Shown here: piece by piece, positions 20,925 to 53,653 of the stretch
How positions within the stretch are numbered: the first letter of the stretch is position 1
How the letters are laid out: each line of letters starts with the position of its first letter
Origin: Ceraceosorus guamensis
Lineage: Eukaryota > Basidiomycota > Exobasidiomycetes > Ceraceosorales > Ceraceosoraceae
DNA: 53,653 bases
Reading direction: 5' to 3'
NCBI RefSeq assembly: GCF_003144195.1
Contig: NW_020290093.1
Coordinates: 1-53,653 of the forward strand
Translations under genes and position numbers: made by a program
The notes under the pieces: generated by a model
Told to the model about the DNA's origin: nothing
The model's database searches: none
The model's input: only the letters and a program-made list of their open reading frames with translations

Positions 20925-23900
20925 TCACTTCTTGTTCTGCTCCCGAGCCGCTTTGATCAGAGGACTCAGTGTCCGCAAGCTGTCGCAATACTTCAAGAAG
21001 GAGTGCTGTATGGCATGCCGACACCAGAGTCAGCCTGAATCCATTCAGATGCATAAACGCAACACTCACTCCAAGGACAGTCGTGGCATCTGGCCTTCTC
21101 TCTGCGTCCACATCCAAGCACGTCTTCAAAAAGTCGCGGAAGGTGCTGGACAAATTCTCCGGATTGTTGATCTTTGGCGTACCGTTTGTCGCGATGAGGT
21201 ACAATGCGCGAAGCGGGTTCTCATTCAGGTAAGGAGGCTCGCCCTCCACCATTTCTTTTGGGGCCAGTGAATGAAATCAGCCCGGATCTCGAGATTGGGC
21301 ACATGGCTCGGTCTCCCTCACCAATGCACATGATACCAAGACTCCAAATGTCCACCTTCGGCCCATACTCTTTGCGTGTGACCACCTCGGGTGCCATCCA
21401 GTACGGAGTTCCGACCATCGTAGTACGCTTCGCTTGGGATTCTCCGATCTGAGCGCAGAAGCCAAAGTCAGCTGCGCAGGAGAAGCAAAGCAGGCAAAAG
21501 TCAGCATCCTGGTTGATTCGTGCGCTGAAGCTTTGGCCCAACGCACTGAGCTTGATGTCACCGTTCATGGACAAGAGGATGTTGTCGCTCTTGATGTCTC
21601 GATGAATGACGCTGTTGGCGTGCAAATGACGCAGACCTTCGAGCACTTCGCGGCTGACTGCAGCAATTTGGCCCTCTGTCATGATGTTGCATGTCACGAC
21701 GTCTGTCAGACTACCGCCCTCCATGTACTCCATCACCACCCACAGATCGCCCTTGTACAAGAATGAGTCGATGAAGTTCACGATGTTCCGATGTCTAGAT
21801 TCTCGCATAACCAGAATCTCGTTGATGATCAAGTCTTTCTTTGGCTGTTGGTCCAAATTCATCTGCTTGATGGCCACAGACAGATTTGATCCCACCTGAT
21901 AAGCTGTGTACACTCCACCTGAGGCTCTATTGGCGTAGCGCCAAGAAAATTCGAGCCCAGTCAGCTCTTCCTCGGGCTGCTGCTGGACCGCCGCTGAGCA
22001 TCGCACACTCACCCTTGTCCAATCTTCACTAGACTCCTGTATAGCTTCGTAGGATCTGCGTCTGTGCAAATCGCCTGCAGTTTTGCGATCACGTCTGCAT
22101 CGTTCATCTGTGTCTTCTTCGTCTCTCTGCGACGAGGCGTTGCGCCCGGGCCTTTGGTGCTGCCACCTCCGGGTGCCGCTGACGGGCTCTGTGTCTTGGA
22201 CGCAGCGACCGGAGGTGCTGGTCTCGAAGCGACAGGCGCGACGCTCGCACCCGAGGCACTTGCAGTAACGGCCTTGGGCGGCGCTGGCTTGACAGCAGCC
22301 GGCACAGGGGCCGGAGCCGGCCGTGAGGGTTTAAGATCTGGTACCACCGCTGTTGGTGCCGCAAACCTTTCGGGCGAAGGTGGCCGTCGGAGGGACTTCT
22401 TCGCGGAGGACGCACCTCCAGGTGGAGGGGGAGCTGCCCGAGGCTTCTCGTAAACGCCCTTTGACACTGGCGGTGGAGGCTGTTCCTCCCCCGCTCCTGA
22501 TCGGCCGTCTGAGCTACCCAGTGTGCCTGTCCCAGCCGAAGCGGAAGACTTCGCACCTGCACCCCCAAACTTTCTCCAAACGGCTTCTTCTTCGCCCATG
22601 TTCTGCGTAGCGTCCTGATAGAATGCTACTATATCCATGACCGCCTGAGGATTAGCCTCTTGGTCCTGTTTCGAAATGCCAGAATCTTGCAGCAATTGTT
22701 GCCATTCCTTGGGCAAGCCCTGTGCAGAGGATCGAGGCAGCAGAGATTGGCGTCAAAGGCTCGTAATTTCAGCGAAGCAATACAGTGTGCTGCTCGATCT
22801 CACAGTAAATTCCCCAGTGTCGGAGTTGAAGCCAACATGGGTCAAATGGACAGGATCGTAGGGCGTGGAAATCTCGATCTTTTTCTGCTGCGAGAAGACA
22901 TCTGAGTTGAAAGCAGAAGATTCGTAGACAGGGCGGCAAGTACGTCAGTAACTCCGTTTGCTACACAAGCACTTGAAGAGCGCTCGTTCTGTTGCGCCAT
23001 GCAACTCAAATTTCCTAAGCATGATACTCACCGCTCATTGAGTTGACGAAGCCGCCAAAGACTGATTTAAAGGTGTTGCGCCCAGCAGGGCCGCTCAGAC
23101 TCCCATCCCGTGAACGAATGCTGGCCTGGGGGCCGGCAAATTGGCCGCTTGGGACAGACCCTGCATCTGCATCTACCACCGGTGACGCTCCTCCTAAATA
23201 ATCGAATGTAGCCGAGCCGCTGCTGAGAGGACTTGAAGTCGTCGCACCTAGATGCGGAGATGGAGCTGGCCCACTAACGCTTGCGTGCGACCGCGCACCA
23301 GAACTAGGTACAAAACCGCTCGGTGTGACACCTGCTGGCGCTGCAGCATAGTAAGCGTCTGCACCCATCGTGTTTGATCGCAGAGGTGGTGCCGGTCGCG
23401 GCGCATCTCCGGTAGAGGAGCCTGCGCCATACTTGCTTGCGCTGCCACTTGCATATCCACTCGGCGCGCCGGTAGAGGATGGCAAGCCAGAGCGTGCGGC
23501 AGAAGCTCCCCCACCTGGCAGACCGGAAACTGCTGTGGGACCTTGGCGGTACGACCCCGCAATGTATGAAGATCTCTGCGGCTTGCTGGCGTAAGACGAG
23601 CCGCTCATTGGAGGGCTGCCGTGAGCGGCGTAGGGTCCACTGGAGCCTATCGGTGCAGCTTGGCTTGGCCGCACAAACGCCGACGCGCTTCCACTCAGAC
23701 TAGGGGAGCCAGTAGCACTGGAGGCGTATGACTTGGATGAGCCTGGAGGCGGCGGTGCGCTGCGTTGTGGTATAAGATCAAGCTCTCCAGGAACCGCGCG
23801 ATTGGCACGGAGTGCGTCATCGTCGCTGTGAGAATAGCCATTGCCTGTTCCGTGTCGTGCTGCAGTTGCCGCATGATCGTGCGAGCCGTATCCTTCACCA

Positions 23901-49840: not shown

Positions 49841-52630
49841 ATGCCCTCCATTCAACCAACGAGGCGTTCGCCGCCACCTGTACTGGCGAGCAGCAGTGGT
49901 CTGACCTCATCGTCGCCAGTGCCTCTACCTCAACCACCTTCACAGCAACAGCACCAAGTAGGTGGCAGACAAGCAACACGGTCGCGCACAAGAACGAGGC
50001 AGATGGGATCAACGATCAGCACATCGATGAGCGGCCCGTCAGGGTCGCGCCAAAGGTACAGCAGCGAAGATCACCCCCTCAGTCCCCACAAACTCGCCAT
50101 GAAAGGTTACCACTCCTTTGTCTGCTTAGGTGTGCCTTTTCACGTACACAGGAGGTATACATTCCTCCGAGAGTTGGGCATCGGCGCTTATGGATGCGTA
50201 GCTCTCGCACGCGACAGCGTGCTCGACTGCGATGTTGCGTGAGTTGTTGCTGCATGATTTGCACCGGTGCAATGGCATGCTGACCCCTACGTCCGCTGGA
50301 TACGCCCTGCAATCTCTACAGGATAAAGAAGGTTACGCGGGTGTTCGAGCGAGACGTCTTGGCAAGGCGCGCGCTACGGGAAGTAGCAGTGCTTCGACAC
50401 ATTGGCATGTGCGGCAACGTCACGGCGCTTTTGGACTTTGACACCAGCTTCATCGAATTCAACGAGATTTATCTGGTCATGGAGGCTAGCGAAGCCGATT
50501 TGAGGTGAGTGTCTGTTCTCCATACACCCGTCGCGGACATTCGAGTCTGATGCTTTTGGCCAACATCAACGCAGCCAAATCATTCGGTCGGGCCAAACCT
50601 TGTCAGACTCGCACCTACAATACTTTCTTGCTCAACTTCTCCGCGGCGTGCGGTATATGCACGCAGCAAACGTTATCCATCGCGATTTGAAGCCCGGCAA
50701 TCTGTTAGTCAATGCCGACTGCCAATTGAAGATTTGCGACTTTGGCTTGGCACGAGCTCATGCCGAGCGGCCGGAACGAAGGTCGCGATCTCGTTCGTAC
50801 AGCACCAGCGTAGAACGTCAGCCTCGAGGCGACCGGGGCAAGCCAGGCACCCCACCCACTCAGGATGGTGCTGCTGTGCCAGCTTCTGAAGTTTCATCTT
50901 CATCCGATGACAGCCAGTCCAAATCTCTCTCGCCGATGAAGAGCCCACCGGATGCTGGGCTAGCGCAGGCTCCTGCGGTGGACACCACCAGGCGGTCAGG
51001 CAGAAGTCGGTCCACCAGGCTGTATTTTCCGGGAGGGCCATTGACAGAGTACGTTGCAACGCGGTGGTACCGCGCTCCAGAGGTCATGCTGTGCTTCCGG
51101 CGGGGTTATGGCGCCGAGATTGATGTATGGAGCATTGGCTGCATCTTAGCGGAGCTCATTGCGGGCAAGCCGCTGTTTGCGGGCAAAGACTACGTCGACC
51201 AAATTGCCCGCATCAACAATGTCTTGGGCACGCCAACAGAGGCGACGATCGCCAAAATTGGAAGTCAGCGTGCGAAAACCTACGTGCAGTCGCTGCCGAA
51301 GATGCCAAAGGTCCCTTTCAGCAGCCTTTTGCCCAAGGCAACGCCTTTGGCTCTGGATCTACTTGACCGGATGCTAACCTGGGATCCGGACGAGAGGATT
51401 TCAGCAGACGAAGCGCTCAGACACCCATGGCTGGCAGCTTACCATCAATCCAATGCAGCATGGACACCTCCAGAGCCTTATTCGCGCTTCGATGAAGTCG
51501 AAGCTATCTCCACGATCACGGAATTCAGACTCGGGCTTGAACGCGAAGCTGAGGAGATGCGCGCGGAATTGCTCGCTCTTGAAGCCGAGGAGCAACGTGA
51601 AGAACAGGAGAGGCTTCTCGCCGAGGCAGATGGGGCAACGAGCACAAATCACGGCGATGACGGGCCACAGCCGGGCTCTCAATACCAGACGCAAAGCGGT
51701 GCTTCCCGAGCTGAGGACTCGGACTTGACCGGCTCTGCCCAATCCGCTTCTCTTAGAGCGTCGACCGAAGCTCCTTCGCCATTGCACACTCCGTCGTCAG
51801 TGGACAGCTTGGACGCTTACGAGACCGATCCTACATCCGCTAGCGCTCCTCAGAGCATCAATGGCTCCACGTATGCACCAAGCGCAGGTACGCCTCATTT
51901 AGGCTTCAAGAAGACCAGCAATCATGTGAGCAGCCACAGCAACGAGAGTGGACGCGGCGACTTTGTGGGTGAAGTACGATTACGCATGCAGGAGCTCGAC
52001 GAGAGCTTGGCATCCCACGCCTTGCTCAAGAAGCCTGCACTTGGTGGTGCAGAGCTCAATCACGAAACCTACCGTCGAAGAGCCATCTCCAACGCAGCTT
52101 GCATTCCACGATTTGCACTCAGAAGAGTTGCGAGCAGCAGAGACGACAACGACGCAAGCCAGGATGGCCAGGTTCTGAACGTGCAGTATCTCGTTCCTTC
52201 GGGCGCCCTATCACGGGTGCCGCCGCCTTCTTTCATCAAGCATACGACGGACATCATCTCGCGATCCAAGTGGCAGCGAGAGTGTGTAACACCACCGCTC
52301 GGCAGCAGCAACGAGCTCGTGAGGAGCGTTGATGAGCAATGGCAGGAGCACAGGCTTCGCTGGGCCGCTGCAGAGGCAAGCATGCTGAGTCAGCGTCCGA
52401 AAGGCAAGACTCTAGTGCGCCCAAACAGCAGCGATGGAAGTAGCGAAGGTGGACATGCACCCTTTCCCAGCAGCGCTAGCCCTCGCGCCTCGGTCTTGGA
52501 CGCTAGCATGATGCTCGAAAGGTCGCGCTCTGACAGCGATAGCCAGAGTCGCGAAGGCAGCGATTCGACCATTGGTCAGCGGGGTGGTCGATCGCCAAGC
52601 ACCCTGCAAGCTTCTCCTATTCCAGCATAA
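49841..52630 (+). CDS. Slt2/Mpk1-type MAP kinase with activation-loop insertion and long C-terminal tail
   Basis: Three exons (49841-50238, 50322-50504, 50575-52630) give 878 residues. It belongs to the cell-wall-integrity MAPK branch: the N-lobe lead-in ([23 protein letters not shown]) aligns with that of Slt2, followed by [77 protein letters not shown], then [44 protein letters not shown] and [25 protein letters not shown] begins at residue 249, but TEY is at 351-353: 95 residues lie between DFGLAR and LTEY where Slt2 has about a dozen. The insert is Arg/Ser/Pro-rich and contains no good splice donor. An N-terminal extension of about 100 residues and a Ser-rich tail after about 510 (with an acidic coiled-coil-like stretch, [20 protein letters not shown]) make it almost twice the length of Slt2. 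Catalytic Lys, Asp and DFG are intact. Confidence 0.9.
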
Positions 52631-53245: not shown

Positions 53246-53653
53246 ATGGCTTCGGCAGCAGCAGCACCTGTTGCGGATCCAAGATGGAAGACGCTGATCG
53301 CAAAGAGCATAGCTGAGAACATCAAGAACGATGGCTCTGTGTGTGAGTATCGAAGCTTGATGTGATTTTGCGCTTGCGAGACGGCTCGCTGAACCTCCCA
53401 TTCTTCTGGGGGGGCGGGGGGGGGGGGGGGAGCAGTGTACTACGCACTTTCGAGCGTGATCCCAGGTTCCCCACCTACTCCTCAAGTCCGATACGTCGTT
53501 CACCGTGGCTTTGTGAACGAGAAGAGAGCAGATACGCCAGAGGGTGTAGAGCCGGCGCTGGATGGGTTTGCCTGTGGAACGGCGCTTTTAACCACGACGG
53601 ACGTTAGGGCTCCCAAAGCGCAACAGATTCGGGACAGCATAGAAAGGACGGGA
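53246..53653 (+). CDS. Alr4036-type pyridoxamine-phosphate-oxidase-like FMN-binding protein, 5' part
   Basis: The first two exons are seen (53246-53342 and 53436 to beyond the right edge), giving about 105 residues. Features match the fungal Alr4036 family of the PNPOx split-barrel fold: DPRWKTLIAKSIAENIKND at the N-terminus, LYYALSSVIPGSPPTPQVRYVVHRGF as the first strands, and ALLTTTDVRAPKAQQIRDSIE. Such proteins bind FMN and may oxidise pyridoxamine phosphate or an unknown substrate. The start is the first ATG (MASAAAAPVAD). The 93-nt first intron ends with a run of about 22 G bases abutting the acceptor, where a pyrimidine tract is normally expected. The protein is truncated only by the window edge. 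Confidence 0.85.
53408..53430. repeat. Poly-G tract next to a 3' splice site
   Basis: Twenty-three bases of G interrupted by one C, ending immediately before AGCAG, the acceptor of the first intron of the Alr4036-type gene. The transcript therefore carries a G-run instead of a pyrimidine tract. Confidence 0.9.

Follow-up and report, generated by a model that had tools for sequence, protein, structure and literature searches.

Structure of the Gene and Its Kinase Motifs

The window, that is, the whole stretch of 53,653 nucleotides that was analysed, is an entire contig (C98) of a 23.8-Mb genome assembled in 199 contigs. On its forward strand lies a MAP kinase gene of the Slt2 class (49841..52630), which begins with an ATG at 49841, ends with a stop codon at 52628–52630 and encodes a protein of 878 aa. 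The gene is composed of three exons (49841–50238, 50322–50504 and 50575–52630), the last of which sits within an open frame of 708 codons. They are separated on the same strand by intron 1 of 83 nt (50239..50321) and intron 2 of 70 nt (50505..50574); both introns are of the form GTGAGT..CAG, both contain a CTRAY branch motif, and both were recovered by a junction search.

The Pkinase domain of Pfam was matched in two stretches with 194.2 bits (cut-off 31.7). Alignment with five MAPKs showed that the catalytic motifs GxGxxG, VAIKK, HRDLKPxN, DFG and APE are all present, as is the TxY dual-phosphorylation motif in the form of TEY. The DFGLAR motif (50738..50755, forward strand, as are all the following features) is succeeded by a Ser/Arg/Pro-rich stretch of 95 residues (50756..51040), which contains the insert discussed below, and then by the 15 residues from the phosphorylation lip to APE (51041..51085), whose TEY-to-APE spacing is the same as that of all five aligned MAPKs. 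The place of the common-docking (CD) motif, 12 residues long, is at 51443..51478, where the compared MAPKs have HDxxDEP. After it comes a long C-terminal extension (51479..52627), whose part 51641–52627 scores clearly as coding (z 5.64). At the other end, an extension of 103 N-terminal residues (49841..50149) begins at a putative start codon and has a weak coding signal (z 0.65), so that the true start codon may lie elsewhere.

Class and Paralogy of the Kinase

Among the 2567 solved sequences matched, the best are chains of MPS1-type MAPKs (8h59, 5z33 and 8ztc, 358–359 bits), and the next kind is MAPK11 (293 bits). All of the 60 solved chains listed from these 2567 align to the window kinase in two stretches. 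The flanks of the insert align strongly to MPS1, again as two stretches, while the insert alone is unmatched.

Besides the window kinase and MPS1, the alignment contained four MAPKs from this genome, which on their motifs and likeness as read would be a canonical Mpk1 (C111), two kinases of Kss1/Fus3 type (C53 and C120) and Hog1 (C23). In the alignment and the tree, the joins in C120 and Hog1 were set by eye, and 1–2 residues there may be wrong, at places remote from both the loop and the CD motif. The window kinase is 56% identical to MPS1, 54% to the Mpk1 of its own genome and 44–48% to the Kss1/Fus3 and Hog1 types; Mpk1 and MPS1 share 76% identity. In the tree of these six rows, the window kinase is grouped with Mpk1 and MPS1 at 97/97, a grouping that gives no order within the trio; its end branch is 1.02 long, versus 0.15 for Mpk1 and 0.20 for MPS1. 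Judged by sequence, the window gene is thus a second, fast-diverging MAPK of the Slt2 class beside a canonical Mpk1. An earlier note on this DNA had offered a diverged Slt2 paralogue as one possibility, and the MPS1-type best matches (358 bits vs 293), the Slt2-class grouping and the separate canonical Mpk1 all bear it out. The cell-wall-integrity (CWI) type is assigned to the window kinase by class, from its likeness to Slt2/Mpk1/MPS1. No relatives of it were found among viral contigs or bacterial and archaeal genome contigs. As to the genome as a whole, it contains an STE3-type receptor, whereas STE2 matched only below its cut-off and a search for Mating_C, run with no positive control, gave no hit; this is suggestive of a basidiomycete and short of proof.

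Length of the Activation Loop

LTEY starts at 51041, in the same frame as DFGLAR at 50738, and exactly 95 residues lie between the two. The residue positions given previously (DFGLAR ending at 254, LTEY beginning at 350) are accurate to the residue in the present gene model. In the alignment, the corresponding length from DFGLAR to the lip is 19 residues in Mpk1, 12 in MPS1, 13 and 12 in the Kss1/Fus3 types and 5 in Hog1. That is to say, the short pre-TEY loop usual in the Slt2 subclass (12–19 residues in the two members compared, and not a defining character) is absent from the window kinase, and the "about 80 extra residues" of the earlier note correspond to an excess of 76 over the genome's own Mpk1 and of 83 over MPS1. 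The frame is indeed open throughout the insert, as that note had said, which at such a length and GC content is by itself only modest evidence. As for the canonical Mpk1 (L051, C111), its loop is itself slightly long, with 19 residues as compared with 12 in MPS1.

From DFG to APE, the window kinase has 109 residues. A survey limited to those kinases of this genome whose motif pattern falls within a single open frame gave 29 rows, of which one is the window kinase, mis-anchored; the genome's Mpk1 is absent from these rows. Four further rows (L005, L020, L025 and L026) look mis-anchored and one (L017) may span an intron, and these five were set aside. Among the 23 usable rows, 20 have 19–28 residues from DFG to APE, and the outliers are L022 with 40, L042 with 85 and L024 with 186. 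Long DFG-APE inserts are thus present in two other kinases of this genome, L024 (C27), which we take to be a Rim15-like AGC kinase, and L042 (C38), presumably also of AGC type.

Splicing and Coding Signal of the Insert

The loop would be ordinary or of middling length if the insert, in whole or in part, were an unusual intron removed from the mRNA. To weigh this reading, a reference set of 17 introns was compiled from five of the genome's MAPK genes. It was obtained from 21 junctions, of which 17 gave a single answer, three gave none and one was ambiguous, the latter four being left out of the scoring; since the junctions were picked visually, and since the window gene itself contributed two introns, the set may lean to canonical sites. 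The introns are 61–251 nt long, 13 of them contain a CTRAY branch motif, and their donors are GTGAGT (13), GTAAGT (2), GTCAGT (1) and GTGCGT (1), with G at +5 and T at +6 in every case (17/17). The GTCAGT donor belongs to the Mpk1 gene (L051, C111), which has another intron of 321 nt with a GTGAGT donor, resolved at the junction EIML/SFQNY and kept outside the scoring set.

The statement that the loop has no GTRAG donor was verified at all of its 14 GT dinucleotides (0/14). This test alone is insufficient, because one of the 17 introns uses GTCAGT. In position-weight scoring, the best donor of the loop, GTCAGC at 50817, reached 2.8 bits, as compared with 6.5 for the lowest true donor (leave-one-out, 17 introns), and the only two GTs of the loop with G at +5 and T at +6, at 50793 and 51006, scored 2.1 and 0.7 bits. 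The sole donor of the GCAAG type in the loop is GCAAGC at 50838, and no CTRAY branch motif is found within the loop. Having no donor near the scores of true ones and no CTRAY, the insert is unlikely to be spliced out in the canonical way. In favour of an intron, the loop holds 38 in-frame GT-AG pairs at least 45 nt apart, and excision of 50793–51035 (243 nt) would leave a loop of 14 residues; introns of comparable length (251 nt and 321 nt) do occur in the genome.

The codon usage of the insert points in the same direction, and it is the strongest evidence against the reading that the insert is translated. Synonymous codon usage was scored after training on 21 open frames of kinases, taken from stop to stop (12033 codons) and not from verified exons, and the insert received −5.7, where −4.9 (sd 3.3) is expected of non-coding and +4.4 of coding sequence. 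Its per-codon score of −0.060 is below all of the 118 coding windows and all of the 37 coding windows rich in disorder, and is equalled or exceeded by 516 of the 590 wrong-frame windows. The insert may be young or weakly constrained, which is the simplest reading of such codon usage, or it may not be coding. In all, we consider it improbable that the insert, in whole or in part, is an intron.

Composition of the Insert

The 95 residues contain 18 Ser, 13 Arg and 12 Pro, in agreement with the Arg/Ser/Pro richness described before, and S, P, Q, G, T, N, R, K, E or D make up 78% of the insert. Along its length the net charge is +5, −2 and +3, that is, the ends are basic and the centre is acidic. 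As predicted from composition alone, the insert is most likely disordered. AlphaFold, run without an alignment on the exon-3 part alone (355 residues), gave a model too poor to be informative (mean pLDDT 40.2, pTM 0.23).

The motifs [ST]P and RxxS/T are no commoner in the insert than in shuffles of the same residues. RS/SR pairs are marginally enriched, with nine versus a shuffle mean of 4.94 (P 0.040, uncorrected, for one of four motifs tried). A docking motif was considered near the insert's end, where basic residues precede LYF, and the basic-hydrophobic expression used gave 0 matches in the insert. An origin as a copied element was also considered; 282 nt of its DNA match only themselves in the genome, in a search that passes over simple repeats and the commonest words and thus leaves a distant or degenerate source possible.

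Loss of the Common-Docking Motif

In MAP kinases, HDxxDEP usually follows the kinase domain, although it is not strictly defining, and the CD motif is where the docking peptides of MAPKKs, phosphatases and substrates attach. At this position (51443 onwards) the window kinase has HQSNAAW, while HDxxDEP is kept by all five of the other MAPKs aligned. Because of the role of the CD motif in docking, its loss predicts altered partners for the window kinase, whose wiring would then differ from that of the genome's canonical Mpk1. With the acidic CD motif lost, we infer that MAPKK, phosphatases and substrates are contacted in other ways (through the tails, the insert or a scaffold), or else that the kinase autophosphorylates. 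CD loss could also mean that the window kinase is no longer activated by a MAPKK.

The insert itself might have been recruited to replace the lost CD site, as a dock or gate that holds on to a partner, or to the catalytic face of the kinase itself, until phosphorylation releases it. Such a role is favoured by the absence of the CD motif from this paralogue only, among the MAPKs aligned, and by the alternation of basic ends with an acidic centre. Against it, the insert is devoid of the form of docking motif sought, and phosphorylation-type motifs other than RS/SR occur in it at shuffle frequency. Motif counts thus lend no support to the phospho-gate or docking element of the earlier note, any regulation through the insert would be conjectural, and recruitment as a dock or gate seems to us unlikely.

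Comparison with Known Kinases

The closest kinases in sequence are the canonical Slt2/Mpk1/MPS1 (54–56% identity), which have the same catalytic and TEY motifs and differ from the window kinase in their loop of 12–19 residues and intact CD motif. The MAPK set of this genome resembles that of Cryptococcus neoformans, for which Cpk1, Cpk2, Mpk1, Mpk2 and Hog1 have been reported (PMC11253600). Mpk2 of C. neoformans (CNAG_04282) is described as a protein of 807 aa, extended at length on both its N- and C-terminal sides, whose phosphorylation upon cell-wall stress is controlled by Mkk2 and whose overexpression gives the mpk1 mutant back part of its cell-wall integrity (PMC11253600). Compared by size and architecture only, the window kinase is like Mpk2 in being a second CWI-class MAPK beside Mpk1 with long tails (878 aa vs 807). 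In contrast to the window kinase, no activation-loop insert is mentioned for Mpk2 in the available text of that paper, which calls the kinase-domain models of Mpk1 and Mpk2 highly similar (PMC11253600). Orthology of the window kinase to Mpk2 is only a lead.

It has been reported that TgMAPK1 (BARKY / MAPKL1) of Toxoplasma gondii is predicted to carry an insert of 93 residues between DFGLAR and the lip, and that about 800 further residues extend it at the C-terminal end (PMC3100106, PMC4055737). The place of the insert and the long C-terminal extension are shared with the window kinase; TgMAPK1 differs in belonging to another MAPK subfamily, in having two further inserts and in coming from a lineage reported to be without MAPKKs (PMC9560070 for the MAPKKs). 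Among apicomplexan MAPKL1 kinases, many have extended loops of up to about 100 residues (PMC9560070), and Pfmap-2 has about 26 extra loop residues (PMC3239843). The likeness to TgMAPK1 is taken as convergent, and the Slt2-class placement argues against membership of the window kinase in the TgMAPK1/MAPKL1 subfamily.

Greatwall/MASTL is an AGC kinase, not a MAPK, and is without a TxY lip. It resembles the window kinase in its very long DFG-APE insert, with the difference that this amounts to about 500 residues, and it is reported to be still fully active with four residues in their place (PMC5342071). In Candida albicans, an acidic activation-loop insert of the MEKK Ste11 is reported to bind the next kinase, Hst7 (PMC8022970). 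Ste11 is, like the window kinase, a fungal kinase of a MAPK cascade with an insert in its activation loop, and unlike it a MEKK whose insert is acidic; it may serve as a reported fungal precedent for such an insert acting as a dock.

The earlier note regarded activation-loop length as highly constrained in MAPKs, which is overstated in view of what is reported for TgMAPK1, MAPKL1, Pfmap-2 and Greatwall; the limit is less strict than was supposed. With long loops known in a few unrelated kinases, the window kinase would be an unusual variant and not something new in kind. In the available text of the open-access literature searched, no fungal MAPK was found described as having a long insert between DFG and TEY.

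Proposed Explanation and Significance

The probable explanation, in our view, is that the window gene encodes a second, fast-diverging Slt2-class MAPK with long tails, in which an insert of about 80 residues, translated and most likely disordered, loops out and leaves TEY within reach. The insert lies wholly upstream of the lip, where it would loop out of the catalytic core and make the activation loop flexible. The segment from TEY to APE, which is read by the MAPKK and forms the P+1 pocket, stays at its normal length, and with it dual phosphorylation should still be feasible. Without the CD site, docking would proceed through the tails, the insert or a scaffold, or else be replaced by autophosphorylation.

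It is very unlikely that this is a decaying or non-signalling paralogue in which relaxed selection let in both the insert and the CD loss, as the long end branch and the CD loss together with the unusual codon usage of the insert might suggest, given the intact catalytic and lip motifs, the last exon in its long open frame and the strong coding signal of the C-terminal tail.

The point of interest of the translated, looped-out insert is that a second CWI-class MAPK would combine a long loop with a missing docking motif. Provided that the long loop is genuine and that the kinase does become activated, it would show, as a natural experiment, at what distance from DFG a TEY lip can be tethered, and whether activation of an Slt2-class MAPK can do without the CD site. 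Moreover, having two CWI MAPK isoforms was described in a paper of 2024 as "a distinctive feature" of a Cryptococcus species; if the present genome is not Cryptococcus, its two Slt2-class MAPK genes would mean that such pairs are more widespread than stated there. A bolder proposal, which we consider unlikely, is that this second CWI MAPK outside Cryptococcus has lost the CD site and moved partner recognition or gating into the insert directly upstream of TEY, so that two Slt2-class kinases that dock by different rules would divide the output of one MAPKK between them.

Other Observations in the Window

At 53408–53430, a run of G broken by one C lies in an apparent intron of the next gene and is a possible weak spot of assembly or sequencing. 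In addition, a reading frame on the reverse strand (21221–22330), named by eye, resembles a PAK/Ste20-like kinase.
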